DNA of 64,000 nucleotides from contig CP019454.1 of NCBI GenBank assembly GCA_002951815.1, positions 1,984,001 through 2,048,000 on the forward strand, written 5' to 3'. Below are positions 3,731-52,469 of the stretch, in pieces. Position 1 is the stretch's first letter; every line of letters starts with the position of its first letter. The notes beneath the pieces were generated by a model, which worked only from the letters and a program-made list of their open reading frames with translations, did no database searches and was not told where the DNA came from. The translations under genes were made by a program, and so were the position numbers. Source of the stretch: Sulfobacillus thermotolerans. Lineage in GTDB: Bacteria; Bacillota; Sulfobacillia; Sulfobacillales; Sulfobacillaceae.

Positions 3731-5800
3731 CTACAACCGCTTTTTGATAAGCTTTACCGTATAAACGTTGGTGATAGCGTTATTTGGTTGCCAAATACGG
3801 ACTTCAACGCGGTCGCCAGGTCGAGGCAGAATTGGTTCAATCTGAAAAGGTCCCCAACCATGATATGTATGAGGCATTCCTAATTGATTGATATCGAAGG
3901 GGACATTAACAGTTCTAACGCTATTTGTCGCTGTAAGCGCTCGTCTTGCTAGTAAGATATCACGAGTTGTATCCCATATCTCTAAATTAACAGCTCTAGA
4001 AGAAGCTAATGTAACGGAAACATCATAATGACCATTTTCGATTCTCCAATAATCATGGTCCAGCACATATCCTGTCCCATCCATAGAAGCTATATGCCAT
4101 GTGGAAGAGCGACCTACGAGGACCGGAGTTCCGTTCGTCGTACTTAGTACCCAAGCTGGAATTGTGTTAGATGAAGAATCTAGGGTGATAAAATGTTGCC
4201 CTCTGGGGACAACCCATGACAAAACCCACACTCCTCCGCCGTGCATAACAAGTTTAGCGTGGTTGTTCCTCACTAAATTAGCGATTATTGATAACTGATC
4301 AGTTTCTTTGACCGTTTCTATTCCTTGTAAAGGGCTGACTACAAAAAACAATTTATGCGAATGGATTGGGAAGGATGAATTGTCGTTTACTAATATAGTA
4401 TATAGCCAAGGCCTAGCCGCGAATCGTCCCGCGATTCCTTGGGATGCAATAACCTCTGAGTCATTTGGTATCATTTTTAAAGCCTTCAAGAGCGTGTCAG
4501 CGGCTTTTGGCGAGACGGTAAGCCAATGCGACGGAGTCTTAGGTGCCCATGTAATAAACCATCCCATGCTATTTGCGGCTATAAGAAAAACAACAATTGA
4601 AGTTACGTACGCTTTAAATCGACCACCATAGTTTTTCATAAACTTAATCAAGACATCAATAGTACCAATCACAACAAAACCATACAGAGGAAAATTTTGA
4701 AAAGAAACGGATGCGAAAGCTCTCGAAAGAATATTACTAGCTCCAATCACAATAGGTATCGCTAGCCCCCAAGGAGAGAAGATACCTATAATACCTCCAG
4801 CTGACAAGTCAGCCCAAATATTTAATCGTTCATTCCATATTGCTATTAATACATGGAAAGGATGAACAAGCATTCCGATAATTAGAGAACCAAACCCCAA
4901 TTTAGACCCTGCTGAGCCTGGATCAACAAGATATCCATAAACAATACCGGGAGGAGGAAGTTTATTCGCACCTAAGAAATGATCCAATAAAATGAAGCAA
5001 ATTGTTCCGGCTAGGACTAAAATAAATCCAGCTCTTTGGCGACCCTTCCCAACAATGATCAAAGTAATCCCCAAAGCAACGACATAGGTACATTCGACTA
5101 ACCCTCCTGTTAAGGTGGCCATAACCCACAATGCGGTCCACTTCCACCTACGATGAAAAGTTTCCCGAGCGGCCAAAATGATAAATGCCGCTGCAAATGG
5201 CTCTGTATGAACATCGAACGACACAGCCCAATAGGTCCATGGATTGAACACAATAAGAATACCGGTTAATAACAGCAACATTATCCTATTTTTGTCGCTG
5301 ATTTCATTAGTTTTAGCAGCACTTATTAAGTCAATCACAAATAAGAGTGTAACTATTTCAGTAGTTTCAACTGCGATATCTTGCAAAATCAAGATGCTAA
5401 TTCCGTGAGGATAAATTCGGGTTAACAACGCAATAAACCAAAATAATGATTGTCCTCCATTGCCCCACAAAGGAAATCCCAGAACAGTGCTGAAAGGATT
5501 CAAATGCCCATGCCATATATTCCACACGCCTTGAAAATATGTGGCAAAATCATAGGTAAGAGCGAACCGATGGTACAACACTATACTCCAGGCCATAAAT
5601 ACAAGAAATTGAACTCCTAAAATGGCTAAGATAAAGTATAGTATCCATTGTTCAGTTTGCCTATTTCTTTTTGCAATATCCGTACCCTTGTCGTTAGATT
5701 CACGATGTAATGGAAGCCACTGAATTTTTTCTGTTATTCCCAGCCAACTTTTCAACATATCCCACCCCAAGTAATTTACAAGCGTGATTCTTAAAATCAA
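3731..5800 (-). CDS. DUF2079-type polytopic membrane protein
   Basis: 689 residues. After a hydrophilic N-terminus of about 50 residues there are roughly ten hydrophobic segments, then a soluble beta-rich domain from about residue 540 to the end. The motif YDFATYFQGVWNIWHG (residues 83-98) matches the conserved D...Q..WN pattern of DUF2079, a family related to GT-C glycosyltransferases. It is translated from TTG three bases after the GT2 gene, so coupling is likely; an ATG at residue 15 is an alternative start. The gene is visibly AT-richer than its neighbours, suggesting acquisition. Its role in transferring a lipid-linked sugar is inference. Confidence 0.75.
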   Translation of the reverse strand: MILRITLVNYLGWDMLKSWLGITEKIQWLPLHRESNDKGTDIAKRNRQTEQWILYFILAILGVQFLVFMAWSIVLYHRFALTYDFATYFQGVWNIWHGHLNPFSTVLGFPLWGNGGQSLFWFIALLTRIYPHGISILILQDIAVETTEIVTLLFVIDLISAAKTNEISDKNRIMLLLLTGILIVFNPWTYWAVSFDVHTEPFAAAFIILAARETFHRRWKWTALWVMATLTGGLVECTYVVALGITLIIVGKGRQRAGFILVLAGTICFILLDHFLGANKLPPPGIVYGYLVDPGSAGSKLGFGSLIIGMLVHPFHVLIAIWNERLNIWADLSAGGIIGIFSPWGLAIPIVIGASNILSRAFASVSFQNFPLYGFVVIGTIDVLIKFMKNYGGRFKAYVTSIVVFLIAANSMGWFITWAPKTPSHWLTVSPKAADTLLKALKMIPNDSEVIASQGIAGRFAARPWLYTILVNDNSSFPIHSHKLFFVVSPLQGIETVKETDQLSIIANLVRNNHAKLVMHGGGVWVLSWVVPRGQHFITLDSSSNTIPAWVLSTTNGTPVLVGRSSTWHIASMDGTGYVLDHDYWRIENGHYDVSVTLASSRAVNLEIWDTTRDILLARRALTATNSVRTVNVPFDINQLGMPHTYHGWGPFQIEPILPRPGDRVEVRIWQPNNAITNVYTVKLIKKRL

Positions 5801-5803
5801 TCC

Positions 5804-6613
5804 TTAAAATAGGCGTGTTTCGCTGATAGAATTATCTGCTGAGTGTGACATTGAAAGTTCCAATTCTTTCATTTGAATGTTCAAAAAAGAATAATGCCAT
5901 ATGTTCCACGTGTGTACACGAAACTCTAGTGCTGTTTTGATTACACCAAATCCATAGATAATGCTTCGTTGCAAATTAATCGATGAAGACTCCGCCTCAT
6001 AGCGGGTCGGACAAGATATTTCGCCAATGCGAAAACCGGCCATATGGGCCTGGGCTATCATTTGGTTGTCGAAGACAAAGTCATCGGAATTGCGGTCCAG
6101 CGGTAAAGTCTCCAGTACTTGTCGACTGAAGGCCCGGTAACCCGTATGGTATTCTGACAACTTTAGACCTAGCAAGATGTTTTCAATGAGAGTGAGTAAT
6201 CGGTTAAAAACATATTTATATCGCGGCATACCGCCCTTCAGCGCGCCCTTTCCTAAAATACGCGAGGCTAATACAAAGTCGTATGTTCCATACGCTATCA
6301 TGCCGGCCATGGCCACCAGTAGTTGGGGCGTGTATTGATAGTCGGGATGCAACATTATTACAACATCTGCCCCGCGGTCCAATGCAGCACGATAGCAGGT
6401 TTTTTGATTGCCTCCATAGCCTTTGTTCGTCGTATGGCGAATGACGGGAAGTCCTAGCCTAGTTGCCTCGGTCACCGTGCCATCCCGACTGTTGTCGTCA
6501 ACGAGCAGAATATCATCAATGATTGTCCGGTCAATTTCCTGTACCGTTCGGTGCAGTGTTGTTTCCGCATTGTACGCAGGCATGACGACCGCAATGCGTT
6601 TACCATTTAACAA
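5804..6613 (-). CDS. Family 2 glycosyltransferase (polyprenyl-phosphate sugar synthase-like)
   Basis: 269 residues. The GT-A fold N-terminus VVMPAYNAETTL is followed by ILLVDDNSRDGT and the LHPDYQY motif (D for metal-nucleotide binding), as in dolichol-phosphate mannosyltransferase and ArnC/GtrB-type enzymes. No C-terminal membrane pair is obvious, so it is the soluble type. The start is TTG with GGAGG seven bases before it. Such enzymes load a sugar from a nucleotide donor onto undecaprenyl phosphate at the inner leaflet. The next gene downstream (DUF2079) and the upstream EmrE-like and GT-C genes fit a flip-and-transfer pathway. Confidence 0.85.
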   Translation of the reverse strand: MLNGKRIAVVMPAYNAETTLHRTVQEIDRTIIDDILLVDDNSRDGTVTEATRLGLPVIRHTTNKGYGGNQKTCYRAALDRGADVVIMLHPDYQYTPQLLVAMAGMIAYGTYDFVLASRILGKGALKGGMPRYKYVFNRLLTLIENILLGLKLSEYHTGYRAFSRQVLETLPLDRNSDDFVFDNQMIAQAHMAGFRIGEISCPTRYEAESSSINLQRSIIYGFGVIKTALEFRVHTWNIWHYSFLNIQMKELELSMSHSADNSISETRLF

Positions 6614-38656: not shown

Positions 38657-40995
38657 AAGTTAGTTACCGGTGGTTAACTCGCTATGTTCCGGATTTGCCA
38701 GCGCCGGCGAAGGTCGCCGACACCCTGACGCAAATGGGGTGGGAAGTGGCGCAGATGGAGGCTTGGGGACGGTGGTACGAACCCGTGGAACTGGTGGAAG
38801 TCGTTCAGCGGGTGAAGCATCCTGATGCCGACCATTTGTCGGTGGTCAGCGTCAGGCGCGGTGACGGCAGCACGATTGACATTGTCACGGGGGCTTCCAA
38901 TGGATTTGTTGGAGACCGCGTCTGGTATGCGCCTGTGGGGACCGAACTGGTTGACGGCCGTGTATTGGAAGCGGTTCGCATGCGCGGCATCCTTTCACCA
39001 GGCATGTTGCTGTCAGCGGAAGAATTGGGATTTGACCAAGGGCCTCAAGATTTATGGATTTGGTCAGGGCCCGAACCGCTTGGGACGCACTTTATTGACG
39101 TCATTGGCGGTCAAGACACCGTCTTTGAATTGGAGCTCACACCCAATTTAGCCGTCTTTGGTCAAAGCATGCAGGCCATTGCTCGCGAATTGGCGGCCGC
39201 ATTGTCTTTGCCGTTGACCGAACACAGTCGCGGTTTTGAATACGGGGAAGATGCGTTGGCGCGCGTTTTAGATCTTCATGACTGTCCGCTCTATGGGCTT
39301 GTAGCATTTCAGATTCAACCGGACGCGCCAACACCTTTGTGGATGCAAGTCTTGTTGCGCGCCATTGGCCAGCGTGTGATTTTTCCGGCCGTAGATATCA
39401 CGAACTTTTTGCTGTGGGATATAGGCCAACCGCTCCATGCCTTTGACCGCGATACCGTCCAGGGCTCTATTACCGTGCGTCTGGCGCATCCGGGTGAGCG
39501 GCTTGAGACTTTGGATGGGGAAGAGCGCACATTAGGGCCTGAGGACTTAGTGATTGCGGACGATGCGGGCGCACTGGCCCTGGCAGGCGTCATGGGCGGC
39601 ACCCGGTCGGCGATTTCTTCAAAGACGCGCCATGTGTTGTTGGAGGCGGCGCATTTTGATTCCTCGCGCATTTTCCAAACCATGCGTCGGCATCAAATTT
39701 TTTCCGATGCGGCACTGCATTTTGGCAAAGGCACGGATCCCTTGGCGGTGTACACCGCCCCAGATCGCTACCGTGCACTGTTACAAGAGGCCGGACTCTT
39801 TGTGGCTACTGGGCCGAGCCAAGTGGTGGGGCGTATTGCCCCGGCTCGTCAAATTGCCTTTGAACCGGACAAGATTCGGCGTTTATTGGGGGTCGATTGG
39901 TCCGATGACAAATTGCGTCAAGGGTTAGAACGGCTGGGGTTTGGCGTGACAGCTGCAGGCGACGTCGTGATTCCTCATGCGCGTCACGACGTTAGTGGCA
40001 GTCACGATTTAGCCGAAGAAGTGGCAAGGCTGTATGGCTTAGAAACCATTAAGCCCTCGGTGTTTCTGGCGCCTGCCGTACCCGGTCAAAAAAACAGCCA
40101 CGAAGCGTACCTTGAATTTTTAAAGAATTTGCTGGCTGAGGCGGGATATTGGGAAGTTGTGACGCGGTCGTTTACGTCACCGGAGCGGTTAGCCCGGGCA
40201 GAAATGACGGTCTCAGATGCGGTTGTCGTGCGCAATCCCTTGCGCGACGAAGAGCGGATTTTGCGCACGTCATTGCTTCCGGGCCTGCTCGAAACGGTTG
40301 AGGCGAACCGCGCCCGGCGGGGACTAGCCCTACGCCTGTTCGAAATTGCGCCCGTCTATCAATCGCATGCGGACGGGTGTCAAGAGATAGCGGAGCTGGC
40401 CGTTGTGCAAACCCTGGAGGGACAACCTGCTTATCCCCATCCTGAAGCCCCTCATGTGTTGGATTTGAAAGGCGTGATGGAATGGGTCAATGTGCGCGCT
40501 GATATGGGCTTGACATGGCGCCAGGTCGAGGAGCCGCCAGCGTATTTGCATCCCGGACGGACGTTAGCACTAACGAATCGCAACGGCACGGTGTGCGGGT
40601 ATCTAGGCGAAGTGCGACCGCGCATAGCCCAGCGCTATCATGCCAAACGTCTAGCGGTTTGGGTCATGCGGCTCGACCTTCTGCCGTCTTCGGCCGCCGT
40701 GTCTTCCCAAATGCATAGGCCCTTACGTCTGCCCGAAGCCGTGCGCGATTTGTCCTTGGTGGTTCCAGCCAATATCGCCTACCAGCAAATCGTGGATGTG
40801 GTCAACGCTCTGGCCCTACCGGCTTTGCGCCGCATGACGCCTATCGACCACTATGTGGGTGCATTTGGTGAATCATGGACCTTGCGCTTTGTCTTCCAAC
40901 CCGAAGAGGTCACCTTGACGGAAGAGGACGTCGATCGCGCGATTCAGCAAATTCTGTCGTCGCTGGACCCTTACGGTGTAAAAATACGCCAATAA
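38653..40995 (+). CDS. pheT: Phenylalanyl-tRNA synthetase beta subunit
   Basis: 780 residues; start ATG lies inside the pheS stop. Domains in order: EMAP-like tRNA-binding domain (VVQRVKHPDADHLSVV), B3/B4 editing domain, B5 domains and C-terminal anticodon-binding FDX-ACB (LPEAVRDLSLVVPANIAYQQ, cited by RDLSLVV). Standard length and order; forms an alpha2-beta2 enzyme with PheS. Confidence 0.96.
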   Translation: MKVSYRWLTRYVPDLPAPAKVADTLTQMGWEVAQMEAWGRWYEPVELVEVVQRVKHPDADHLSVVSVRRGDGSTIDIVTGASNGFVGDRVWYAPVGTELVDGRVLEAVRMRGILSPGMLLSAEELGFDQGPQDLWIWSGPEPLGTHFIDVIGGQDTVFELELTPNLAVFGQSMQAIARELAAALSLPLTEHSRGFEYGEDALARVLDLHDCPLYGLVAFQIQPDAPTPLWMQVLLRAIGQRVIFPAVDITNFLLWDIGQPLHAFDRDTVQGSITVRLAHPGERLETLDGEERTLGPEDLVIADDAGALALAGVMGGTRSAISSKTRHVLLEAAHFDSSRIFQTMRRHQIFSDAALHFGKGTDPLAVYTAPDRYRALLQEAGLFVATGPSQVVGRIAPARQIAFEPDKIRRLLGVDWSDDKLRQGLERLGFGVTAAGDVVIPHARHDVSGSHDLAEEVARLYGLETIKPSVFLAPAVPGQKNSHEAYLEFLKNLLAEAGYWEVVTRSFTSPERLARAEMTVSDAVVVRNPLRDEERILRTSLLPGLLETVEANRARRGLALRLFEIAPVYQSHADGCQEIAELAVVQTLEGQPAYPHPEAPHVLDLKGVMEWVNVRADMGLTWRQVEEPPAYLHPGRTLALTNRNGTVCGYLGEVRPRIAQRYHAKRLAVWVMRLDLLPSSAAVSSQMHRPLRLPEAVRDLSLVVPANIAYQQIVDVVNALALPALRRMTPIDHYVGAFGESWTLRFVFQPEEVTLTEEDVDRAIQQILSSLDPYGVKIRQ

Positions 40996-41080
40996 TGCCT
41001 GATTATGGCGTGACAGCACAGGAAAAAAGCGGTATTGTCGAGGGGAGGAGAAAGACAGAATAATCAAGGGAGGCAGGCGT

Positions 41081-41365
41081 GTGACAGAACCCATTCGGAC
41101 GACCGTGACCATTTATGGCGAGGAGTATTCTCTCAAAGGAGACCTGCCCAAAGATGTGATTCAGGCACTCGCGCACCATGTGGATGGCCGCCTGCGGGTT
41201 CTGGCCGCCAAAAATCCGCATCTTGGGATTTCCCGCATTGCTGTCTTGGCGCTTTTGAACATGGCGGAAGATTTGTACCATCTTCAAGAGCAAAATGAAG
41301 AACTTGTCCGGGCGATGCAAGAACAGTGGCGTAGTAACCGCAGCGTGAAGAATAAGACACCGTGA
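41081..41365 (+). CDS. zapA: Cell division protein ZapA
   Basis: 94 residues from GTG 41081 after AAGGGAGG. TTVTIYGEEYSLKG at the start and the helix RIAVLALLNMAEDLYHLQEQ match ZapA, which crosslinks FtsZ filaments at the division ring. Its place between pheT and mutS2 is typical for Firmicutes. Confidence 0.88.
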   Translation: MTEPIRTTVTIYGEEYSLKGDLPKDVIQALAHHVDGRLRVLAAKNPHLGISRIAVLALLNMAEDLYHLQEQNEELVRAMQEQWRSNRSVKNKTP

Positions 41366-41376
41366 TGGGGACAGGG

Positions 41377-41406
41377 AAAAGGCCACTGCAAACGCAGTGG
41401 CCTTTT
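41377..41406 (+). terminator. Intrinsic terminator after zapA
   Basis: GGCCACTGC (41381-41389) pairs with GCAGTGGCC (41394-41402), flanked by AAAA and TTTT, so it would work in both directions. Confidence 0.75.
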
Positions 41407-41477
41407 CAGGTGCTATAATCCAAAGGTGCATACGCAAGAGTTTAACAGATCTTTAGAGAAGAGAAAGGCAGGGGCAC

Positions 41478-43847
41478 GTGAACACTCTTGATACCATAGC
41501 GGACAGCCGGCTGCGGATCAGTCTCGATTTAGTCCAGTTTCCTGCCGTGCTTCAGCAAGTCGCCGCCTGGACGGATACGCCCATGGGCCATGAGCGCATT
41601 GTCAACGCGGGGTATTTGAGCGAGGCTGCGTTGCGCCAACGGCATGATGCCTTGCAAGAAGTCATGCGACTGGTGCGTGACGCCGAGACGCTGGAGATCT
41701 CCCTCAAAGGCGCCATTCCTCTAAAGGATTTGGTGCGGCGGGCGCAAAAAGGCGGAATGTTGAACCCCGAAGAATTGTTAGGGATTGGGGTGACGCTGAA
41801 GGTTGCCGAGGCGGTTAGTACGTGGACAAATGATCAAGACATGCCGTTATTGGCCCAGCGCATTGCCCGCTTGCCGTCCTTAGGTTACGTCGCGCAGGCC
41901 ATCTTTCGCATATTAGACGAGCATGGACAGGTAAAGGACCATGCCAGTCCTGTTTTGCAAAAAATTCGCCGTGAAATCAGACAATCGGAGGCAGAGATTG
42001 ACCGCCTGCTCGATGGGATTATTCATTCGGGGCATTGGGCCGAATTTTTGCAAGATCCCGTAGTCACCCTACGATTTGGACGCCGTGTGGTGCCCGTCAA
42101 GGCGATGTTTCGTAATCAAGTGCCAGGGATTGTGCATGACCGGTCATCTAGTGGGCAAACGGTATTTGTGGAGCCCATGCCGGTTGTGCAGAAACAAAAT
42201 CAATTGACAGAACTGCGCAATCAAGAAGATGAAGAAATTCGCCACTTGCTCGCGGAGTTGTCCCGCACGGTCGGAAGTGTGGCCGATGACTGTGTGGTGA
42301 CAGAACAGACATTGGCGTGGCTTGATGAACTGTTGGGGATTGTCCGCTACGGCCAGCACACCGGGGCAGTTCTGCCCATTATCGGCGGGGAAGATTTACA
42401 GATTATCGAGGGCCGACATCCCTTGATTGAAGACCCGGTCCCGCTCGATTTGTCATTAGCCAAGTCCCGTCATATTTTAATCATTACGGGTCCCAATACG
42501 GGAGGCAAGACCGTCGCGCTGAGAACGACCGGCTTGATTGTGAGTCTGGCTTTGGCCGGTATGATGGTGCCGTGCCGCGCAGGGACAACGATTCCGCTCT
42601 TTGACCGGATATGGGTGGATATTGGCGATGAGCAAAGCATTGAGCAAAATTTGTCCACCTTTTCGAGCCACATGGCGCGGCTGATTCCCATGATGGAATT
42701 TGCCGACGACAAGACGCTTTGTCTCATTGACGAATTGGGGGCCGGAACGGATCCCGACGAAGGTTCGGCCCTCGCCGAAGCCATGATTCACCGCTTGCGC
42801 GCTCATCATGTTTATGCGGTTGTTACGACGCACTACAGCCGTTTGAAATTGCTGGGATTTCGCTTGCCGGACGTCGAAAATGCCCAAGTGGCATTTAATC
42901 GCGAAACCCTCACACCGACGTACCATCTCATCATGGGTCAACCCGGCAGTTCGCATGCTCTCTATATTGCCCAGCGCCTAGGCATGCCTGCTGAGGTTAT
43001 TGACCAGGCACGGGCCTTAATGGATGAAGAAGGCACGACCTTGGCCGATGTGATTGAAGAAGCCAATCACTTGCAAATGGAGTTGCGTGCTGCCAAACAG
43101 CAAGTGCGCGAACAAGCGGACGCCTTAGCGGCCCAAACCTTGGCCTTGGAACAAGAGCGGCGCAAATGGCTTGACACACGGGAAAAGGAAATGCGCCGGA
43201 TTCGCGATCAGTGGCGGCATGAACTGGACCAGTTGCATGATCAGATGACCGAAGCCATTTTAGAAGTGCGCCATCAACAAGGACCAGACCAGGCGCGCGC
43301 GGTGGAGGCTTTGCGGGATACTTGGCGGCGGCGGGGCATTTTGCCCCAAGAGTTAGAAACGACGAAAGCGCGTCCCGAAGGGCATTGGCAGGCAGGAGAT
43401 TATGTTCACGTGCGCGACTTTGAAGGGCTTGGGCAGGTCCTGGAGGTCAACGGCAAGGTGGCGTTGGTCGAAGTGGGGGCGCTGAGAGTCAAGGTGCCCG
43501 TTGGGGATTTAGAGGCCGCTAAGGCTCCGCAACCGGGGCGAACGAGAAAACCGCCGGGTCGCCATCAAGGGCTGTCGTCGGCCAAAGCGCAAAATCTTCA
43601 CATGGAGTGTGATGTGCGCGGGATGACGGTCGATGAGATGGTGGATGTGGTGGACAAATATCTCGATGACGCGGTCTTGGCTGGAGCCTTTCAAGTTCGG
43701 ATTATTCACGGCAAAGGCACCGGGGTGTTGCGCAAGGCTGTTGGACAGCTGTTAAAGGCTGACCCTAGGGTCAGCACCTACCGACTGGGCGAGCGCGGTG
43801 AAGGGGGCGACGGCGTAACGGTCGCGACGTTGGGAGACCGAGAGTAA
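41478..43847 (+). CDS. mutS2: MutS2 (endonuclease MutS2 / ribosome-rescue ATPase)
   Basis: 789 residues from GTG 41478. The MutS core carries Walker A ITGPNTGGKTVALRT (near residue 336) and LIDELGAGTDPDEGSALAEA. A long coiled coil follows (about 520-620), and a C-terminal Smr domain carries DVRGMTVDEM and IIHGKGTGVLRKAV. Known roles include limiting recombination and, in Bacillus, splitting collided ribosomes. Standard domain order. Confidence 0.95.
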   Translation: MNTLDTIADSRLRISLDLVQFPAVLQQVAAWTDTPMGHERIVNAGYLSEAALRQRHDALQEVMRLVRDAETLEISLKGAIPLKDLVRRAQKGGMLNPEELLGIGVTLKVAEAVSTWTNDQDMPLLAQRIARLPSLGYVAQAIFRILDEHGQVKDHASPVLQKIRREIRQSEAEIDRLLDGIIHSGHWAEFLQDPVVTLRFGRRVVPVKAMFRNQVPGIVHDRSSSGQTVFVEPMPVVQKQNQLTELRNQEDEEIRHLLAELSRTVGSVADDCVVTEQTLAWLDELLGIVRYGQHTGAVLPIIGGEDLQIIEGRHPLIEDPVPLDLSLAKSRHILIITGPNTGGKTVALRTTGLIVSLALAGMMVPCRAGTTIPLFDRIWVDIGDEQSIEQNLSTFSSHMARLIPMMEFADDKTLCLIDELGAGTDPDEGSALAEAMIHRLRAHHVYAVVTTHYSRLKLLGFRLPDVENAQVAFNRETLTPTYHLIMGQPGSSHALYIAQRLGMPAEVIDQARALMDEEGTTLADVIEEANHLQMELRAAKQQVREQADALAAQTLALEQERRKWLDTREKEMRRIRDQWRHELDQLHDQMTEAILEVRHQQGPDQARAVEALRDTWRRRGILPQELETTKARPEGHWQAGDYVHVRDFEGLGQVLEVNGKVALVEVGALRVKVPVGDLEAAKAPQPGRTRKPPGRHQGLSSAKAQNLHMECDVRGMTVDEMVDVVDKYLDDAVLAGAFQVRIIHGKGTGVLRKAVGQLLKADPRVSTYRLGERGEGGDGVTVATLGDRE

Positions 43848-43907
43848 GATTTTTAGGCAATCTATCAGTATGATATACTCTCGGCAGGATAATAGGGAGG
43901 ATTGGGT

Positions 43908-45101
43908 TTGCAAGACATTCATAAACAATTGGACTGGCTTATCAGCGGCACCGATGACGTCGTCAGTCCCGCCTTGCTCAAAGAGAAATTAGAGAAATCG
44001 CAGGCGACGGGGCGCCCTTTGACGGTTAAGCTGGGGGTAGATCCGACGGCCCCTGACATTCACCTGGGGCATACGGTAGTCATCGAGAAACTCCGCCAAT
44101 TCCAGGAACTGGGCCATACCGTGGTCTTTTTGATTGGTGACATGACGGGCCGCATTGGAGATCCGACAGACCGCGCGGCTACGCGCAAGCAACTGACTGC
44201 GGATGAAGTCAAGGCTTTTGCCGCCACTTATATTGAACAGGCGCGCAAAATCTTAGATGCGGACCGGCTGACTTTACGCTACAACAGTGAATGGCTGGAG
44301 CCGATGCAGCTGGCCGACACGATTCGGCTCATGGGTCAAATGACGATTGCCCGTTTGTTAGAACGAGATGATTTTCATAATCGGTTTACTGAACATGTGC
44401 CCATCTATTTTCATGAACTTCTCTACCCCCTGATGCAGGGCTATGATTCGGTAGCATTAAAGGCGGATGTGGAACTGGGCGGCACCGATCAGCGATTCAA
44501 TATCATGACGGCCCGTCAAATTCAAGAAGCCTATGGGTTGGAGCCGGAGGTCGGAATTTTCTTGCCGATTTTAGAAGGCACCGACGGCGTTCGACGCATG
44601 GGAAAAAGTTTGGGGAACTATGTCGGCATCAGTGAACCCCCCGAGGAGATGTACGGCAAAATCATGTCCATTCCCGACACCTTGATTAGCCGGTGGGCCA
44701 TGCTGCTCTTAGGAGAAAATCGCACGGTATGGGAAGAACGGGTGCAAAGTGAGAATCCACGTGATGTGAAGGCCGATTTAGCGAAACGGCTGGTGACGCG
44801 ATTTGCGGGCGAGGACGCAGCGGTGGCAGCACAAGAGGCTTTTGACCGCAAGTTTCGCGAGCATCAAGTGCCCGAGGACATGCCTTCGGTGGCGATGCCT
44901 AGCAATCCATGGCAGGTGTCGGCGATTGAGTGTGTGGCAAAGATGCCCGATGTGCCTAGCAAACAAGAAGCACGGCGGTTATTGCAGCAAGGAGCCGTGG
45001 TGCTGGATGGCAATCGCTTAGCGGTGACAGATGTCTTAAGCATCGCTGCGGGGTCATGGATGCGTATTGGCCGACGCCGGTATTACCGGTTTACGGTGTA
45101 A
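43908..45101 (+). CDS. tyrS: Tyrosyl-tRNA synthetase (TyrZ-like)
   Basis: 397 residues from TTG 43908, seven bases after GGGAGG; the TTG at 43902 would leave only one base of spacing. Class I signatures: LGVDPTAPDIHLGHTVV (HIGH region as HLGH) and RRMGKSLGNYVG (KMSKS region as RMGKS). C-terminal S4 RNA-binding domain (SKQEARRLLQQGAVVLDG). No T-box precedes it, unlike thrS and pheS. Confidence 0.95.
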   Translation: MQDIHKQLDWLISGTDDVVSPALLKEKLEKSQATGRPLTVKLGVDPTAPDIHLGHTVVIEKLRQFQELGHTVVFLIGDMTGRIGDPTDRAATRKQLTADEVKAFAATYIEQARKILDADRLTLRYNSEWLEPMQLADTIRLMGQMTIARLLERDDFHNRFTEHVPIYFHELLYPLMQGYDSVALKADVELGGTDQRFNIMTARQIQEAYGLEPEVGIFLPILEGTDGVRRMGKSLGNYVGISEPPEEMYGKIMSIPDTLISRWAMLLLGENRTVWEERVQSENPRDVKADLAKRLVTRFAGEDAAVAAQEAFDRKFREHQVPEDMPSVAMPSNPWQVSAIECVAKMPDVPSKQEARRLLQQGAVVLDGNRLAVTDVLSIAAGSWMRIGRRRYYRFTV

Positions 45102-45112
45102 GGAGTGAGGGC

Positions 45113-45835
45113 ATGGTAGCGCAAGATGAAGAGCGGTTAGGATGGCAAGAGATGGAGCAAGGCCAACTGGAAAATGCAGAAGTTCATTTTCGACGGGCTC
45201 TTGAACTCGACCCTTACCGTGCAGATGCTTTAAACGGCCTGGGTCAGGTCTATTTGTCGTGGGGCGATTTCGAACAAGCGCAAGAATTGTTTCAGATGGC
45301 TATTGCGCAAGCGCAGGAGGATTTGCCGCATCACCAACGCCATACGAGTTGGGAAGATGTCAACATTCGCCCCTACTTGCGGGGCTTGTATCATCTGGCC
45401 GTGACCTTATTTCGTCAAGGACTGTGGGATGAAGCCTGCGAACCATTGGAAGAGTTAGTCGCTTGGGATACCGAGGCGATAGGTCAAGATGGCTATTACT
45501 TGCTGGGCATGCTGCAGCTACGCGCGAATCGTCCGACAGAAGCTGTAGAATGTTTTCAACAAAGCTTGTCACGTTATCCCGAAGCATTTTACAGTTTGGG
45601 ATTAGCACATTTTCTTCAAGGACAACTAACGGATGCGCGTCAGGCGTGGGCTGATGCGTTAGCTGTCATTCCGGATCTCAGCTTGTTTATTACCCACTAT
45701 CCGGCCTTATTGCCGTTTCCATTATGGCAATCGGATGATGAGACCTTTGTGCGCACCTCGCGTTATGTGGATGATATGGTGGATTTATGGACACCAGAAG
45801 CCAAAGAGGAACTGGGGCGATGCATGAAAGCGTGA
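45113..45835 (+). CDS. Tetratricopeptide-repeat protein
   Basis: 240 residues from ATG 45113 after AAGGAG. At least four TPR-like units: ENAEVHFRRALELDPYRADAL, GDFEQAQELFQMAIAQAQ, GLWDEACEPLEELVAWDTEA and RPTEAVECFQQSLSRYPEAF (each given only in part). No signal or membrane segment. TPR arrays serve as protein-binding scaffolds. It lies 12 bases after tyrS and 32 before the ThiF-like gene, so it is likely in one operon with them. Partner unknown. Confidence 0.8.
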   Translation: MVAQDEERLGWQEMEQGQLENAEVHFRRALELDPYRADALNGLGQVYLSWGDFEQAQELFQMAIAQAQEDLPHHQRHTSWEDVNIRPYLRGLYHLAVTLFRQGLWDEACEPLEELVAWDTEAIGQDGYYLLGMLQLRANRPTEAVECFQQSLSRYPEAFYSLGLAHFLQGQLTDARQAWADALAVIPDLSLFITHYPALLPFPLWQSDDETFVRTSRYVDDMVDLWTPEAKEELGRCMKA

Positions 45836-45867
45836 GCTGAGCGGGGAGGAAATGGAGGGAGCGGGCA

Positions 45868-46506
45868 GTGCGAGCAGCCATAGTGGGGGGCGGCGCGATT
45901 GGATCGCCGCTGGCGATGCAGTTGGCGCACGATCCGGTGATTGAAGAGTTACGAGTGATTGATGCCGACCGCATCGCCTTGTCCAATTTGCCTAGGCAGC
46001 CATGGTTCAACGAGACGGATATTGGCGACTTTAAGGCAGAATGTCTTGTGCGCTATGCGCCAGAGCGTTTGACGGCGCGGGTTGAGGCGTTGACGAACGA
46101 CAACGCGGCCCGGTTATTAGCGGGTTGCGATATCGTTTTTGATGCCTCGGATAATTGGCCCGCGCGCATGGCCATTCAACAATGGTCGTTTCAGACCGGT
46201 GCTCCCTGGATTTTCGCCTCGGCGCTTCGCGCGGAAGGGATGTCTGCACTGCTTTCTCCTAAGACGCAGTGTCTTTTTTGTTTATTTGGCACATTGCAAC
46301 AAGGTCCTCGGTGCTTTGAAGCGGGGGTGTTAGGAACTTTGACCCTTGCTGTGGCCGGCCAAGCGGTCACGTTGTGGGAGTTGTGGCGGGAGCATCCTGA
46401 CGATGTCCAGTATTGGCCACAGGGTCTATTTTTAGTCGATGGGGTGCAAGGAGCCGTAACGAAAATTGGCATGAAGGCGGTGCAATGCACGCATGGAGCT
46501 CGATAA
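45868..46506 (+). CDS. ThiF/MoeB-like E1 dinucleotide-binding protein
   Basis: 212 residues from GTG 45868 after GGAGGGAG. It starts directly with the Rossmann strand AAIVGGGAIGSPLAMQLA, then VIDADRIALSNLPRQ, where E1-like enzymes keep D-x-D-x-V-x-x-S-N-L-x-R-Q, and VFDASDNWPARM. CLFC (about residue 134) resembles a zinc Cys pair, but no second pair is seen. The N-terminal R-Y-S-R-Q helix normal for MoeB/ThiF is missing and appears instead in the next gene. It may activate a ubiquitin-like sulfur carrier, or be a diverged paralogue. No carrier gene is adjacent. Confidence 0.75.
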   Translation: MRAAIVGGGAIGSPLAMQLAHDPVIEELRVIDADRIALSNLPRQPWFNETDIGDFKAECLVRYAPERLTARVEALTNDNAARLLAGCDIVFDASDNWPARMAIQQWSFQTGAPWIFASALRAEGMSALLSPKTQCLFCLFGTLQQGPRCFEAGVLGTLTLAVAGQAVTLWELWREHPDDVQYWPQGLFLVDGVQGAVTKIGMKAVQCTHGAR

Positions 46507-46834
46507 CCGGACGATTGAAAAGTTTTCTCGCCAAATATTGATGGATGAGATTGGCTATGATGGACAGTTGCGCCTGCTCTCGGAAACAGTGTGGCTGACG
46601 GGGCCAGACCCTTGGCGTGCGTGGGCTGCTCGCTATTTGCGCGCCGCCGGTTTAGAGGTCAAAGAGAGCCCCGCCGTCAAGACCTCTAGGAATCTTCGTC
46701 TTATAGCCTCAAGTGGGCGTTGTCCAGACCTTGTGATTCCTGTGAGCGGTGAAGGCGGTCAGACGATGGTGGCGATGGGTTTGGCCATGACGCAATGGTT
46801 GCGGACTTTAGCATCGGGGGAGATGGAAGCATGA
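46493..46834 (+). CDS. Small ThiF-like N-terminal-domain protein
   Basis: 113 residues, overlapping the end of the E1-like gene by 14 bases. It begins with KFSRQILMDEIGYDGQLRLL, the helix that opens MoeB/ThiF/E1 proteins. It continues with a Rossmann-like WLTGPDPWRAWAARYLRAAG whose glycine loop is degenerate. It seems to complement the previous protein, which lacks this helix. Translation runs into nadE by an ATGA overlap. Whether the two form one heterodimeric E1-like unit is inference. Confidence 0.6.
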   Translation: MELDNRTIEKFSRQILMDEIGYDGQLRLLSETVWLTGPDPWRAWAARYLRAAGLEVKESPAVKTSRNLRLIASSGRCPDLVIPVSGEGGQTMVAMGLAMTQWLRTLASGEMEA

Positions 46835-48537
46835 CGCAACTCAATGTGCGTCTGGTGCAAATGAATAGTGTGGTGGGCGACGTCGCAGGAAATTTACAGC
46901 GTATGCTGTCCGCCATGGAGCGGGCCCGGCGCGATCACATCGATGTTGTCGTGTTCCCAGAATTGGCGCTTGCAGGATATCCGCCGGAAGACTTGCTGTT
47001 TCGTGCAGACTTTCTTGAAACCCTGCAACAGGCTTGTGATGAAATGGTCAGGCATTCGCAAGGACTGATGGCGATTTTTGGCTATGCTTATGCCGATGGG
47101 GGCTTGTTCAACGCAGCGGTGGTGGCGCACGAAGGGACTTGGGTGACGCGGGTGCAAAAACAGTATTTGCCCAATTATGGGGTATTTGATGAGGCGAGAT
47201 ATTTTACGCCGGGGCGTGAGACGGAAATTATTGATGCGGGCGCCTGGAAAATTGGGGTATCCATCTGTGAAGACGTCTGGTATCCTGACGGTCCTTACTT
47301 AGATCAAGCGCGGCAAGGGGCCAATCTTTTAATCAACATCAGTGCATCACCTTATTCTCGGGGAAAACGGGCGGCCAGGGAACGGATGTTAGCTACGCGT
47401 GCGGATGACGTGGCCTCTTATCTGCTGTGGACGAATTTGGTGGGAGCGCAAGACGAATTAGTGTTTGATGGGCAAAGTGCGGTATTTGGGCCCGACGGCC
47501 AGGTGCTCGCCAGAGCGCGCGCTTTTGGCGAAGACGAATTGTCGTTGACCCTGCACGCGACGCCTAGTCAGCACCGGCGATTTATCGACCCCAGGTGGCG
47601 CTTGGGCCCAGTCTCTGACCAGGTAGGCGTTGTCCGCATAGGCTCCTTGGGCCATTTAGATGCTCCACGCTATGACCTCACGTGTACGCCGGTTTTAGAA
47701 GACGATGCCGAACTTTATCAGGCTCTCGTGTTAGGGGTCGCGGATTATGTCGAGAAGAATCATTTTCAGGACGTAGTCATTGGCTTGTCAGGCGGCATTG
47801 ACTCCGCGTTGACGGCGGCGATTGCTGTGGATGCTTTAGGCAGTGAGCGAGTGCATGGGGTGTTGATGCCTTCAATCATTACGTCGAATGAGAGCCGGGA
47901 AGACGCATTGGCAGTCGCCAAGAATTTGGGCATTGCGACATGGGAGCTAGGGATTCAGGATATTATGACGGCGTTTTTGGATGAGTTGGGGCCGGTGTTT
48001 GCGGGGCGTGCTGTGGATTTAACCGAAGAGAATCTCCAAGCACGAATTCGCGGCACTTTGTTGATGGCGTTGTCGAATAAATTTGGTTGGCTGGTGTTGA
48101 CCACGGGAAACAAAAGCGAAATGGCCACGGGGTATAGCACTCTTTATGGAGATATGGCAGGGGGATTTGCTGTATTGAAAGATGTGCTAAAGACCCAAGT
48201 ATTTCGCCTGGCGCGGTGGCTCAATCAGGAGCGGACGCGTATCCCCAAGCGCGTGATATCAAAGCCACCGAGTGCTGAGTTGCGGCCTAATCAAAAGGAC
48301 GAAGATAGCTTGCCGCCTTATGATATATTAGATCAGATCTTAGAGGGTTATATTGAAGAAGATTTGTCTCCGGAGGCGTTAAAGGCCCGTGACTTAAACC
48401 CGGCTCTTGTAGATCTGGTTGTTAAGTTGGTGAACCGTAATGAATACAAGAGGCGTCAAGCTCCCGTAGGGATTAAAGTGACTCCGCGGGCGTTTGGGCG
48501 GGACAGGCGCATGCCAATCACACGCCATTTTGAATGA
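46831..48537 (+). CDS. nadE: Glutamine-dependent NAD+ synthetase
   Basis: 568 residues from ATG 46831 (ATGA overlap upstream, GGGGAG before it). The N-terminal nitrilase-like glutaminase domain shows Glu in VFPELALAGYPPEDLL, Lys in VQKQYLPNYGVFDE and the nucleophile Cys in VSICEDVWYP. The C-terminal ATP-pyrophosphatase domain begins with GLSGGIDSALTAAI and has TTGNKSEMATGYSTLYGDMAGG (key GNKSE). It makes NAD from deamido-NAD with glutamine as nitrogen source. Confidence 0.96.
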   Translation: MTQLNVRLVQMNSVVGDVAGNLQRMLSAMERARRDHIDVVVFPELALAGYPPEDLLFRADFLETLQQACDEMVRHSQGLMAIFGYAYADGGLFNAAVVAHEGTWVTRVQKQYLPNYGVFDEARYFTPGRETEIIDAGAWKIGVSICEDVWYPDGPYLDQARQGANLLINISASPYSRGKRAARERMLATRADDVASYLLWTNLVGAQDELVFDGQSAVFGPDGQVLARARAFGEDELSLTLHATPSQHRRFIDPRWRLGPVSDQVGVVRIGSLGHLDAPRYDLTCTPVLEDDAELYQALVLGVADYVEKNHFQDVVIGLSGGIDSALTAAIAVDALGSERVHGVLMPSIITSNESREDALAVAKNLGIATWELGIQDIMTAFLDELGPVFAGRAVDLTEENLQARIRGTLLMALSNKFGWLVLTTGNKSEMATGYSTLYGDMAGGFAVLKDVLKTQVFRLARWLNQERTRIPKRVISKPPSAELRPNQKDEDSLPPYDILDQILEGYIEEDLSPEALKARDLNPALVDLVVKLVNRNEYKRRQAPVGIKVTPRAFGRDRRMPITRHFE

Positions 48538-48586
48538 GGCGTAAAGACAATAGGAGACGGTACTTGTTTTTAAGGAGGACTGCACG

Positions 48587-49333
48587 ATGTCGGGGCATTC
48601 GAAGTGGGCCAATATTAAACGCAAAAAGGCCAAAGTGGACGCGGTGAAGGGGACCGTCTTCTCGCGCCTAACCAAAGAGATTATGGCGGCGGCGAAGCGA
48701 GGAGGCGGCAATCCCGATACGAATTTCCGCTTGCGCTTGGCTATCCAAAAAGCGAAAGACAACAACTTGCCTCAAGCCAATATTGACCGGGCCATTAGGC
48801 GGGCTACCGGTCAGGAAGAGGGCGTGCACTACGAAGAAGTGGTCTACGAGGGCTATGGGCCCGGCGGTGTGGCGGTTTACTTGCAAATCTTGACGGACAA
48901 CCGTAACCGCACCGCGGGAGAAGTGCGGCATATTTTTTCCCGTCATGGAGGGGCTTTGGGGGAAACAGGCTGTGTGGCCTGGATGTTTGAGTCCAAAGGT
49001 CGACTGACCATTACCGAGACGAACAAGAGCGAAGAGGAATTGCTCGATGTGGCGATTGAGGCGGGGGCAGACGATTTGCGCCGAGAAGACGGGGAATTTG
49101 TCGTCCTCACGGCTCCTGATGTGCTGGATCAGGTGCGGGAATCGTTTGAAAGCCAAGGCATTAAAGTGGATGATGTGGAATTAGTGCAATTGCCGAAAAC
49201 GACGACCGAAGTGAGCAGTGACGATGCCCACAAACTGTTAGACCTGATTGATTTACTAGAAGACCATGATGATGTCGAAAAAGTCTTCTTTAACGCGGAG
49301 TTCCCAGAAGACTTTGAGATGGACGAAGCCTAA
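48587..49333 (+). CDS. yebC: YebC/PmpR-family protein
   Basis: 248 residues, MSGHSKWANIKRKKAK start and GPGGVAVYLQILTDNRNRTAGE typical of the family (quoted in part: GYGPGG and DNRNRT). Start after AAGGAGG. Known as transcriptional regulators; YebC-type proteins have also been linked to easing ribosome stalling at proline runs. In many genomes yebC precedes ruvCAB, exactly as here. Confidence 0.95.
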   Translation: MSGHSKWANIKRKKAKVDAVKGTVFSRLTKEIMAAAKRGGGNPDTNFRLRLAIQKAKDNNLPQANIDRAIRRATGQEEGVHYEEVVYEGYGPGGVAVYLQILTDNRNRTAGEVRHIFSRHGGALGETGCVAWMFESKGRLTITETNKSEEELLDVAIEAGADDLRREDGEFVVLTAPDVLDQVRESFESQGIKVDDVELVQLPKTTTEVSSDDAHKLLDLIDLLEDHDDVEKVFFNAEFPEDFEMDEA

Positions 49334-49362
49334 TAAGGGGTTTTTGTGAGGCCCAAGCGTGA

Positions 49363-49393
49363 CTGGGGCTTACGCCCCAGTAAGCCGCTTTTC
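49363..49393 (+). terminator. Hairpin between yebC and ruvC
   Basis: CTGGGGC (49363-49369), loop TTAC, GCCCCAG (49374-49380). A short T run occurs only some ten bases later. The rest of the 265-base gap shows no gene. Confidence 0.45.
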
Positions 49394-49598
49394 ATAGACG
49401 GGCGCCAGAGGTCTTTCACCCCATAGGTGGGGAGAACCATGGCGTGTTTTTCCGTCTCGGCATAAACGCAGCGCATGCCCTAAAGTCGCATAGAACATAT
49501 GTCCTGACAAAAAATAGAGGATTTTTTCCTGCCGCTGTGGTATTTAACAAAGCAAGACGCTATAAGCAGCGCAGGGACATTGTGGAAGCGGGTGTGTT

Positions 49599-50087
49599 AT
49601 GCGGATGTTAGGAATTGACCCGGGCACGGCCATATGCGGGTGGGGCATTATTGACAAAGTGCGCCATGAGCCCTTGGCCCATGATTACGGGGCTGTGCTG
49701 ACTTCCTCCACGTTGTCCGCACCCGAGCGCCTAAAACATCTGTATGAGGGGCTCATCGCGGTGATTGACCGCTATCAGCCGGAATATGGAGCGGTGGAGA
49801 AACTTTTTTTTGGGCAAAACACGAAAACGGCCTTGGCGGTGGGACAGGCACGTGGGGTGGTGCTCTTAGCCTTGAGCCAGCGCAATATTCCTATTGTCGA
49901 AATCTCACCGGCGGAAGTGAAGCAAACAGTGGCCGGCTATGGCCGGGCCGACAAGCACCAAGTGCAGATGATGGTCACGCGCTTGCTGCATCTGGAGGCC
50001 GTGCCCAAGCCCGACGATGTCGCCGATGCGTTAGCGATTGCGATGACGGGGTTGGAATGGGTGAAATTCCGGGAGGTGCTGCGATGA
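49599..50087 (+). CDS. ruvC: Holliday junction resolvase RuvC
   Basis: 162 residues. Acidic catalytic residues visible: Asp7 (MLGIDPGTA), Glu67 (GAVEKLFFGQ), and Asp140 and Asp143 (KPDDVADALAIA). Cuts Holliday junctions in partnership with RuvAB. Overlaps ruvA by ATGA. Confidence 0.96.
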   Translation: MRMLGIDPGTAICGWGIIDKVRHEPLAHDYGAVLTSSTLSAPERLKHLYEGLIAVIDRYQPEYGAVEKLFFGQNTKTALAVGQARGVVLLALSQRNIPIVEISPAEVKQTVAGYGRADKHQVQMMVTRLLHLEAVPKPDDVADALAIAMTGLEWVKFREVLR

Positions 50088-50677
50088 TAAGCGAACTAAC
50101 CGGCAAAATTGTCCACAAAGATGACGACGCGTGTGTGGTGGATGTTCACGGTATTGGATTTCGGGTGGATATGTCGAAACGGGCCTTGGCAGCACTGCCG
50201 GACGTCCAAAACCCCGTCCATCTCTATACCCACTTGGTGGTGCGAGAAGACAATTGGCGGTTGATTGGCTTTTTGGAGGTCGAGGAGCGGGAAACGTTTT
50301 TGGACCTGATTGCGGTGGGGGGCATGGGCATTAAGACCGCCTTATCCGTGCTCGGGGTACTAGGCGTCGACGGCCTGGAAGAGGCGATTTCTCAAGAACA
50401 ATGGCAAACCATTAAGGATGCGCCAGGAGTCGGAGCCAAATTGGCTCAGCGTATTTTGTTGGAGCTTTCGGGAAAATGGCAGAACAAGCCTCGCCGTCAC
50501 TCTCCGAATGCTGGGCCATCTTTGCCCCGCTCGGTCAAACTCGATGACGTGGGGGAAGCGTTAATGGCTCTTGGCTATTCCTTGGAGGAAGCCCAAGCGG
50601 CGTCTCGGCAAACGGCGGCCGAAGGAGATTTGGCTGACCGAATTCGTGAGGCATTGCGTACGCTTGACAGGCGATAA
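50084..50677 (+). CDS. ruvA: Holliday junction DNA helicase subunit RuvA
   Basis: 197 residues from ATG 50084, within the ruvC stop, with GGGAGG upstream. OB-fold N-terminus ([20 protein letters not shown]), helix-hairpin-helix motifs ([14 protein letters not shown]) and the C-terminal RuvB-contact domain ([20 protein letters not shown]). Length is standard. Confidence 0.96.
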
Positions 50678-50691
50678 AGGGGGCAAGGACG

Positions 50692-51702
50692 ATGCAAGAC
50701 CGGGTAGTCTCTGGTCATTCGGGGGCAGAGGCTGAGACAGAAGGGACACTGCGCCCCGATCGGCTCAAGGAGTATATCGGCCAAGAGGAACTCAAAGAGA
50801 AACTGTCCATCTTTATCGAAGCGAGTCTAGCACGCCAAGAGCCGTTGGACCATGTGTTGTTATACGGCCCGCCGGGTTTGGGAAAAACCACACTGGCCCA
50901 TATTATTGCCAACGAACTCGGCGTCGGCATCCGCTATACATCGGGGCCGGCGATTGAACGACCTGGCGATCTCGCCTCTATTTTAACGAATATTGATGAT
51001 CGCGAAGTGTTGTTTATTGATGAAATCCACCGTCTGTCCCGTCCCGTTGAAGAAGTGCTGTATCCGGCCATGGAAGATTTTGCCTTGGATTTGGTCTTGG
51101 GAAAAGGACCTGGAGCGCGGTCGGTCCGTCTCGACTTGCCCCGATTCACCTTAGTTGGGGCGACGACGCGGCCTGGCATGTTGGCGTCGCCGTTGCGGGA
51201 CCGTTTTGGGGTGCTGTTGCATCTCGATTTCTATCATCCCGAAGAGCTCGCTCACATTGTGGACCGTTCTGCGCGGGTCTTAGGGATTCCTATGCATCCG
51301 GATGCAGCCTATGAGATTGCGCGGCGGAGCCGGGGCACGCCTCGCATTGCCAATCGGTTGCTAAAGCGGATTCGGGATTATGCGCAGGTGCGGGGAGACG
51401 GACAGGTTTCGCTTGTCCTAGCGACCGAGGCATTGGAACTATTGGCCGTCGATCCGATGGGGCTCGATCAAGTGGATCGGCGCCTGTTGGTGTCGATTGC
51501 GGAACGCTATCATGGCGGCCCGGTGGGCCTAGAAACCTTGTCGGCTGCGGTCGGAGAAGAAAGCGGCACAATTGAAGAAGTCGTCGAGCCCTATTTGCTG
51601 CAACAGGGATTTTTACAACGTACGCCACGTGGGCGCATTCTAACCCGCCGGGCATATTTGCATTTGGGCTTGCCGGCCGAACCGGAGTTAACGGACGAAT
51701 AG
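50692..51702 (+). CDS. ruvB: Holliday junction DNA helicase motor RuvB
   Basis: 336 residues. AAA+ motor: Walker [14 protein letters not shown], Walker [11 protein letters not shown], sensor [19 protein letters not shown], and the C-terminal winged helix ([17 protein letters not shown]). Fifteen bases after ruvA, one operon. Confidence 0.97.
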
Positions 51703-51731
51703 ACCAGAGCATGAGGAGAGGGGGAGTGGGA

Positions 51732-52469
51732 ATGCGGTCGGATCCAGCGGCCAATGTCTCGATTTCTCTGCTCGCACGCGCATCAAGCGGCGATGTGGCC
51801 GCTAGAGATCAACTCATTTCGGAATATGTTCCGTTCATCTTAAAGACCGCTAGCAAGGTAGCGGGCCGCTATCTGCATCAAGGCGTTGATGAGGAAATTT
51901 CGGTGGCGATGTTGGCATTCAATGAAGCCATTGGCGCATACACCAAGACCAAGGGCAGTTTTGTGGGATTTGCCCAGACAGTGATTAAGCGCCGCTTGAT
52001 CGATTATTACCGGAAGAAAAATTCGGGTCCGGCGGAGGTCTTGCTGAGCGAACTCGAACACGAGGATCCCCAAGGGCATGTGTTGCAAACGCAGATTGAC
52101 TTCATGGCTCACCGAGTGTGGCGCGACAAGCTGAGCCAAGAGGTGAGGGTGCAGGAAATTGCGGAATTGGAACAGGCACTTCATGCGTTTGGGATGCATG
52201 TAGCCGAGTTACCCAAAATTTCTCCACGGCACCAAGATGCGCGCCAGCGTGCGATCGCCGTGAGTCATCACATTGCGCATAGTGCCCGGCACCGAGAATA
52301 TTTTTGGACGCGTAAGGAGTTACCGATTAAGGACTTAGTGTTGGAGACGGGGATAAGCCGCAAAGTCATTGAACGGCACCGCAAGTACATTATTGCGATT
52401 ACGCTGATTTTAGTTTCGGACTGGCCCTACTTGCAACACTATGTGCGGGGGCGAATACAAGATGAATAA
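51732..52469 (+). CDS. sigI: Alternative sigma factor of the SigI family
   Basis: 245 residues from ATG 51732, with GGGGAG just before; an upstream ATG (51711) in the same frame is less well placed. Region 2-like segment with SFVGFAQTVIKRRLIDYYRK (key KRRLIDYYR), and a C-terminal helical domain ending LETGISRKVIERHRKYIIA, as in Bacillus/Clostridium SigI rather than classical region 4. An RsgI-type anti-sigma factor follows, overlapping by eight bases. SigI factors respond to heat or to extracellular polysaccharides. It lies nine to thirty bases after ruvB. Confidence 0.85.
   Translation: MRSDPAANVSISLLARASSGDVAARDQLISEYVPFILKTASKVAGRYLHQGVDEEISVAMLAFNEAIGAYTKTKGSFVGFAQTVIKRRLIDYYRKKNSGPAEVLLSELEHEDPQGHVLQTQIDFMAHRVWRDKLSQEVRVQEIAELEQALHAFGMHVAELPKISPRHQDARQRAIAVSHHIAHSARHREYFWTRKELPIKDLVLETGISRKVIERHRKYIIAITLILVSDWPYLQHYVRGRIQDE

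Follow-up and report, generated by a model that had tools for sequence, protein, structure and literature searches.

Two overlapping genes in the genome of Sulfobacillus thermotolerans, encoding proteins of 212 and 113 aa, encode, on a slight balance of probability, a heterodimeric E1 enzyme of the MoeB type, in which the small subunit would supply an arginine finger in trans and MoaD would be the substrate. As expected of a heterodimeric E1, one unit was found to have an ATP site without the finger, and the other a finger without the ATP site. In the proposed mechanism, the large subunit would bind Mg-ATP and the C-terminal Gly-Gly of a carrier protein and form the acyl-adenylate. The small subunit, a shrunken and catalytically dead E1 copy, would replace the second protomer and insert its R13 finger into the single remaining active site, that of the large subunit. 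The most likely carrier would be MoaD, with subsequent sulfur transfer and then molybdopterin synthesis with MoaE; the pair would thus be the MoeB of these bacteria.

Gene organization of the locus

The window analyzed is a stretch of 64,000 nt of Sulfobacillus thermotolerans (CP019454.1, 1,984,001 to 2,048,000), and its features are listed in Table 1. The two overlapping open reading frames were located on the forward strand at the positions given for them in the preliminary description. A possible start codon of nadE (ATG, 46831) overlaps the stop codon of the small gene as ATGA. At all 24 loci of the family, the large and small genes overlapped by 8–26 nt in a constant relative frame, the small-gene start being taken as the start codon closest to the match. 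The conserved order of genes at the locus was tyrS-[TPR]-core-small-nadE. An Rfam scan of positions 40000-52000 gave no matches.

Table 1. Positions of the features discussed; those of the first five rows refer to the window, those of the last three to the locus named
Feature	Position	Strand	Remark
Large gene, putative active E1-like subunit (212 aa)	45868..46506	+	GTG start
Small gene, putative mini pseudo-subunit (113 aa)	46493..46834	+	
Overlap of large and small genes (14 nt)	46493..46506	+	
nadE, glutamine-type NAD synthetase	46831..48537	+	Judged no functional part of the pair
TPR protein (240 aa)	45113..45835	+	Conserved neighbor, separable from the pair
Split E1 set, L142	1002-4979		
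Split E1 set, L147	2582-6546		
Split E1 set, L151	2659-6561		

No sulfur-carrier gene adjoins the pair, as had been noted from the sequence: the two PF02597 matches of the genome lie about 1.1 Mb off, one on each side, and the pair is thus not clustered with thiS. One other ThiF-family protein of this genome scored above the Pfam cut-off; it was encoded less than 1 kb from a ThiS-type match. This ThiF protein (L204, 4059-4811, minus strand) lacks the RYxRQ motif and reads RVRRLIALPGI.

Sequence and predicted structure of the two proteins

The large protein matched the Pfam ThiF profile with 125.3 bits over positions 22-196 of 238. Since the match begins only at profile position 22, the protein lacks the N-terminal helix; relative to MoeB/ThiF, roughly 30 N-terminal residues are missing. 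The arginine finger, which is part of the MoeB chain, is therefore not in the large chain and is carried by the small gene. The large protein comprised a Gly-rich loop, D32/D34, SNLPRQ (R43), K56, and D92/D95 (DxxDN); its cysteine motifs were CxxC (C135, C138), C149, and CxH (C207, H209). In the alignments, which contained 25 of the 26 pairs (L073 was omitted, its large protein being equal to that of L072 and the gene differing only silently), D32, D34, N40, R43, K56, D92, D95, N96, R100, C135, C138, C149, C207, and H209 were invariant in all 25 rows. The row of L080 (G006) is about 25 N-terminal residues short; the DNA of this locus does encode the Gly-rich loop.

According to correspondences counted by hand along the alignments, R43, K56, D95, and C149 align with R70, K83, D127, and C184 of ThiF, and C135/C138 with its first CxxC. 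The ATP/Mg residues of MoeB, given in the available part of PMC12355090 as Arg73, Lys86, and Asp130, have invariant equivalents in R43, K56, and D95, as mapped through the ThiF alignment. The scores with the NCBIfam equivalog profiles of MoeB (TIGR02355, 58.3 bits) and ThiF (TIGR02356, 100.4 bits) were under the respective cut-offs of 376.55 and 275.25 bits. The C-terminal CxH motif, encoded within positions 46250-46503, is invariant in the 25 rows; long E1s have CxxC.

The structure model of the large protein (pLDDT 90.9, pTM 0.90) aligned with UBA3, UBA2, ThiF, and MoeB at Z 23.7-24.7, values that are ties; the alignment begins at residue 32 of MoeB (Z 23.7) and residue 29 of ThiF (Z 24.0). 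No catalytic-cysteine or ubiquitin-fold domains were found in the 212-aa protein, and its top structural alignments covered 194-209 residues on adenylation units.

The small protein has an arginine-finger helix (KFSRQILMDEIG) with R13 and Q14, a degenerate beta1-alphaA unit (VWLTGPDPWRAWAARYLRAAG), and a C-terminal helix (residues 88-108), and lacks the Gly-rich loop and the later ATP-site residues. Pfam gave no match to it at E<=1. Its residues 2-54 matched the UbaA model at the N-terminus (E 2e-7), and matches to MoeB models were likewise N-terminal; a profile of the small proteins matched E. coli ThiF (E 7e-12), with homology spanning residues 3-57 only. These profile matches bear out the earlier reading of the locus, namely an E1/ThiF core minus its N-terminal arginine-finger helix, followed by a small overlapping gene for that helix and a degenerate Rossmann strand.

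R13, Q14, and G24 of the small protein were invariant in all 25 rows, and L16, Y48, and G53 were also kept. By hand count, R13 aligns with R11 of ThiF; Arg11 of ThiF and Arg14 of MoeB are arginine fingers, that of ThiF being contributed by the adjacent subunit, according to part of PMC13139853. The mean column identity was 40% for the small and 58% for the large protein.

The model of the small protein (pLDDT 84.9, pTM 0.74) opens with a long helix, which is followed by a strand-helix-strand unit and then two strands, and closes with a C-terminal helix. It matched E1s weakly (Z 5.0-5.7, including ThiF 2-216 with Z 5.3 and SAE1 12-325 with Z 5.7), and unrelated folds reached 6.7. The alignments with ThiF and SAE1 hint that the C-terminal part may be the counterpart of the E1 dimer helix, at Z values no better than those of unrelated folds. 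With this model as query, Foldseek found no match at E<=0.001.

Both genes are under purifying selection. Nei–Gojobori dN/dS ratios were 0.05-0.15 for the large gene and 0.07-0.37 for the small gene over the usable comparisons among 10 genome pairs per gene, several of which had dS >1. No usable value was obtained from two pairs for the large gene (one saturated and one nearly identical, with a ratio of 0); for the small gene this was the case in three pairs, of which two were saturated and one identical.

Distribution and evolutionary history

A neighborhood survey, which the preliminary description had proposed, revealed the TPR-ThiF-miniThiF-nadE arrangement to be conserved, with both genes present and adjacent in 24 of the 34 genomes of the family. 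The pair was absent from eight; in G007 both genes were fragmentary, and G028 retains a remnant of the small gene. Two more families of the order contained the pair, one in a single genome out of seven (G117) and the other in its sole genome (G124), in both cases likewise between tyrS-TPR and nadE. Altogether, 26 pairs were found in the 42 genomes of the order, and none of these genomes encoded an intact large or small gene alone.

Within the class, the small gene was present in pair form in 26 of 154 genomes. The remaining matches fell in open frames of at least 242 aa, except for the remnants in G007 and G028 and two frames close to contig ends (198 aa in G131 and 162 aa in G036). In a phylum sample of 398 genomes (E<=1e-13), matches were restricted to G000, G020, the G007 remnant, G204, where a single-chain E1 of 284 aa adjoins a cysteine synthase-like gene, and G512, where the match lies in a 458-aa frame.

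A tyrS tree was built for 39 of the 42 genomes (G023, G122, and G123 had no usable tyrS); on this tree, the distribution of the pair requires five changes, and well supported branches force four of these. Because the pair occurs in all three families, a single old origin followed by five losses is the simplest reading. A long E1 was present in four of the five pair-loss lineages; the fifth (G003, G004) also had no MoaD/MoaE matches. As the small and large proteins each hold a first-strand unit of their own, we infer that duplication followed by complementary decay fits their origin better than a simple split.

Gene content and the probable substrate

The pair, the E1s above the Pfam cut-off, and MoaE were tabulated over the 42 genomes of the order; the carriers counted were of the PF02597 type. 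E1s were labeled as long in 16 genomes by open-frame length and Pfam score, in 9 of the 16 on length and score alone. The pair without a long E1 was found in 24 genomes, 21 of them with MoaE, and a long E1 without the pair in 14 genomes, all with MoaE and with MoeB-like open frames of 376-467 aa. Two genomes (G022, G027) had both, and two (G003, G004) had neither; in the latter two, no MoaE, ThiS/MoaD, or above-cut-off E1 matches were found. MoaE was encoded in 23 of the 26 pair genomes, and the three without a match are 59-71% complete. A rhodanese domain was present in all seven long E1s scanned (G007, G009, G021, G022, G026, G027, G028), five of which belong to the 14 genomes without the pair. 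We take these proteins to be MoeB-rhodaneses of the MoeZ/MOCS3 type.

In G006, G029, and G031 the pair was the sole E1 above the cut-off. Each of these genomes encoded one carrier, ending PPVSGG, which adjoins MoaE in G029 and G031 and is separated from it by about 3 kb in G006. In nine further pair genomes, the sole other E1 above the cut-off was near a ThiS-type match. Against a role with MoaD, other ThiF-family proteins possibly serving this carrier were found in G013, G014, G015, G017, G018, G020, and G030; G124 had three further E1s and G117 one.

Gene content points to MoaD as the substrate of the pair, although the pattern is not significant after kinship is taken into account. Fisher's test of the pair against the long E1 gave p 2.4e-7 with kinship ignored; kinship-aware contrasts, of which there were four on supported branches and five on all branches, gave a median p of 0.25, and with fewer than six events independent contrasts cannot reach 0.05.

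A heterodimeric E1 acting on another substrate, such as ThiS, a tRNA-thiolation carrier, a non-Ubl carboxylate (as with TcdA and Cap2), or several carriers, is on the whole unlikely. In favor of this reading, the sequence of the large protein scores equally near ThiF and MoeB, TcdA-like and RiPP enzymes have the same fold, the pair is not linked to moa genes, and the analogous sets L142 and L151, described below, have a different linked carrier, ending VPAIAGG. On the other hand, 18 genomes of the family encode a ThiF no more than about 2 kb from a ThiS-type match, and the single PF02597-type carrier in each of G006, G029, and G031, where no E1 but the pair exceeds the cut-off, is near MoaE; both facts favor MoaD.

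At another locus (L218 of G026, 3778-6278), a small protein ending VSGG is encoded between a repeat-containing protein (identified by eye) and a MoeB-rhodanese gene, and L212 and L213 also encode a protein of this kind ahead of the long E1. The VSGG protein and the long E1 are possibly a further carrier–E1 system.

Similar gene sets in other lineages

The finger helix was found at 68 loci, 19 of them pairs of the order and 49 others. At 43 of the 49, the E1 recognized by the large-subunit profile was encoded in the same open reading frame as the finger helix. Three (L142 from Candidatus Binatia, L151 from Deltaproteobacteria, and L147) contained a split set of an E1 and a separate finger protein. 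The Pfam match of these E1s starts at profile position 16 or 17, near the first strand, with the start of the L151 protein being uncertain; 2.6-2.7 kb downstream is the gene of a 181-186 aa protein that starts with the finger helix and whose first unit is dead. Between the two lie genes for a PLP enzyme, which matched Pfam PALP in L151, for a carrier, which was observed in L142 and L151, and for a cysteine synthase-like protein, identified by eye. Judging by the carrier and the cysteine synthase linked to them, these sets would seem to serve the synthesis of cysteine rather than molybdopterin.

Seven aligned E1 sequences, including the single-chain enzyme of G007, had D32, D34, S39, N40, R43, K56, D95, C135, C138, C149, and C207 in common, and nine aligned finger proteins shared R13, Q14, L16, G21, G24, Q25, and G53. 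The strongest argument for a functional heterodimer is that the same parts have been separated in the same manner elsewhere. As their length and setting differ, the recurrences were taken as separate from the Sulfobacillus pair. It is an evenly balanced proposition that a bacterial E1 was duplicated and decayed into an ATP-binding subunit and a dead, finger-giving one more than once, apart from the eukaryotes: in Sulfobacillus as a version of about 113 aa for the molybdenum cofactor, and in Binatia and Deltaproteobacteria as a version of 181-186 aa in cysteine-synthase operons with a carrier of their own.

Other arrangements were observed at the remaining three of the 49 loci. In Magnetococcales (L161, 5974-6948; L169, 5974-6888), a dead E1 copy keeping the finger helix forms a fusion protein with a TusA sulfurtransferase domain, as identified by Pfam. 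In L176, a 217-aa copy follows cysteine synthase, and no other E1 was found within the 5.6-kb contig.

Role of the small subunit

The large protein might instead be a finger-less homodimer working alone, with the small one as its regulator, chaperone, or scaffold; we regard this as quite improbable. In the available text of PMC13139853, the arginine finger is described as dispensable in MoeB and ThiF and as lacking in TcdA, and in that of PMC6031683, UBA3 is described as activating NEDD8 without APPBP1, which only accelerates the reaction. These observations support such a homodimer. They are opposed by the invariance of R13 and Q14 over 25 rows in a small protein otherwise freer than the large one, by the fact that the small gene was never lost alone in the 42 genomes, and by the retention of the finger helix in dead copies of other phyla. 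Within the heterodimer that we favor, the small subunit may count equally for assembly and for catalysis, since the finger is reported to be non-essential in MoeB and ThiF and UBA3 to work without its partner.

Relation to the neighboring genes

The preliminary description had proposed an adenylating or NAD-linked heterodimer. The adenylating part of this proposal is retained on the grounds of complementary invariant residues, the 26 co-occurring pairs, and the recurrence in other lineages; the NAD-linked part was given up because of separate losses.

An NAD-linked enzyme acting with NadE is thus very improbable. Admittedly, nadE follows the pair at all 26 loci, though in G022 only as a piece, and both the pair and an intact close nadE are missing from five genomes (G009, G010, G021, G024, G025). 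However, nadE was intact where the pair was not (G003, G004, G007, G026, G028), its start directly follows the TPR gene in four genomes of the family of G117, and G022 retains the pair beside a nadE truncated to residues 481-567, about the last 87. The TPR gene occurs in genomes without the pair and was not found at six pair-bearing loci of the same genus; a role shared by the pair and the TPR protein was rejected, the two occurring separately. Since each is separable from the pair, neither nadE nor the TPR gene looks like a needed partner.

Several states of nadE were observed. The C-terminal piece in G022 (L078, 4763-5023) is located after the pair, nadE of G010 (L107, 4117-4667) has decayed into pieces, and G009, G021, G024, and G025 gave only distant NadE-domain or nitrilase-domain matches. 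These five genomes without an intact nadE may have changed the type of NAD synthetase. In G024, G025, and G021 (L225, L226, and L227, respectively), yebC follows the TPR gene, and the pair and nadE are missing there.

Decaying gene fragments or a sequencing frameshift can be dismissed: decayed copies do exist in G007 and G028, but the pair is kept in 24 of 34 genomes of the family and in two other families, with dN/dS well below 1.

Comparison with known E1 systems

MoeB and ThiF are homodimers in which ATP is bound by both subunits, with two active sites (PMC12355090, in the part available). The pair resembles them in fold, ATP-site residues, the cysteine position of ThiF C184, the arginine-finger motif, and the first CxxC. 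It differs in having the finger and the ATP site in different genes, one copy being a 113-aa remnant, and in the CxH motif at the C-terminus of the large subunit.

SAE1–UBA2 and NAE1–UBA3 combine one active and one inactive adenylation unit, as proposed for the pair. The large model has UBA3 and UBA2 among its top structural matches; these tie with ThiF and MoeB to within Z 1. Unlike these enzymes, the pair has no catalytic-cysteine and ubiquitin-fold domains, and its inactive unit is far smaller; a separate origin is assumed. The heterodimer Tcd1–Tcd2 of yeast has a single complete site, finished by the arginine finger of the partner (PMC13139853, in part), as proposed here for the pair; it is, however, a tRNA ct6A enzyme, and both of its subunits are large ThiF-family proteins.

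The MoeB-rhodanese seems to substitute for the pair in genomes without it. In contrast to the pair, it combines in one chain an RYQRQ helix of its own and, at the C-terminus, a rhodanese domain. The sets L142, L147, and L151 share with the pair an active E1 without the finger helix and a separate dead finger copy. Their mini-E1, unlike the small subunit, is 181-186 aa long and ends with CxH or CTHGG, and the two genes are set apart by those of the PLP enzyme, the carrier, and the cysteine synthase-like protein, whereas the Sulfobacillus genes overlap. We found no published name for these sets of E1 and mini-E1. In the literature searched on heterodimeric and split E1s, MoeB, and Sulfobacillus, which covered few subscription papers, no report of the pair or of a bacterial heterodimeric MoeB was found. 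To our knowledge, the dead subunit of about 113 aa would be the smallest E1 partner.

The proposed division into a working subunit and a tiny helper resembles the eukaryotic split of some ubiquitin-activating enzymes. How the lopsided two-subunit eukaryotic E1 originated from a symmetric homodimer is not settled. If our interpretation is true, a bacterial minimal dead subunit, with its losses alongside a one-chain enzyme, would make this step testable in a simple system, and it raises the question of whether the dead copy is kept for the finger, the dimer surface, or something else. The pair would then also supply the MoeB that otherwise seems to be missing from several genomes of the Sulfobacillus group.
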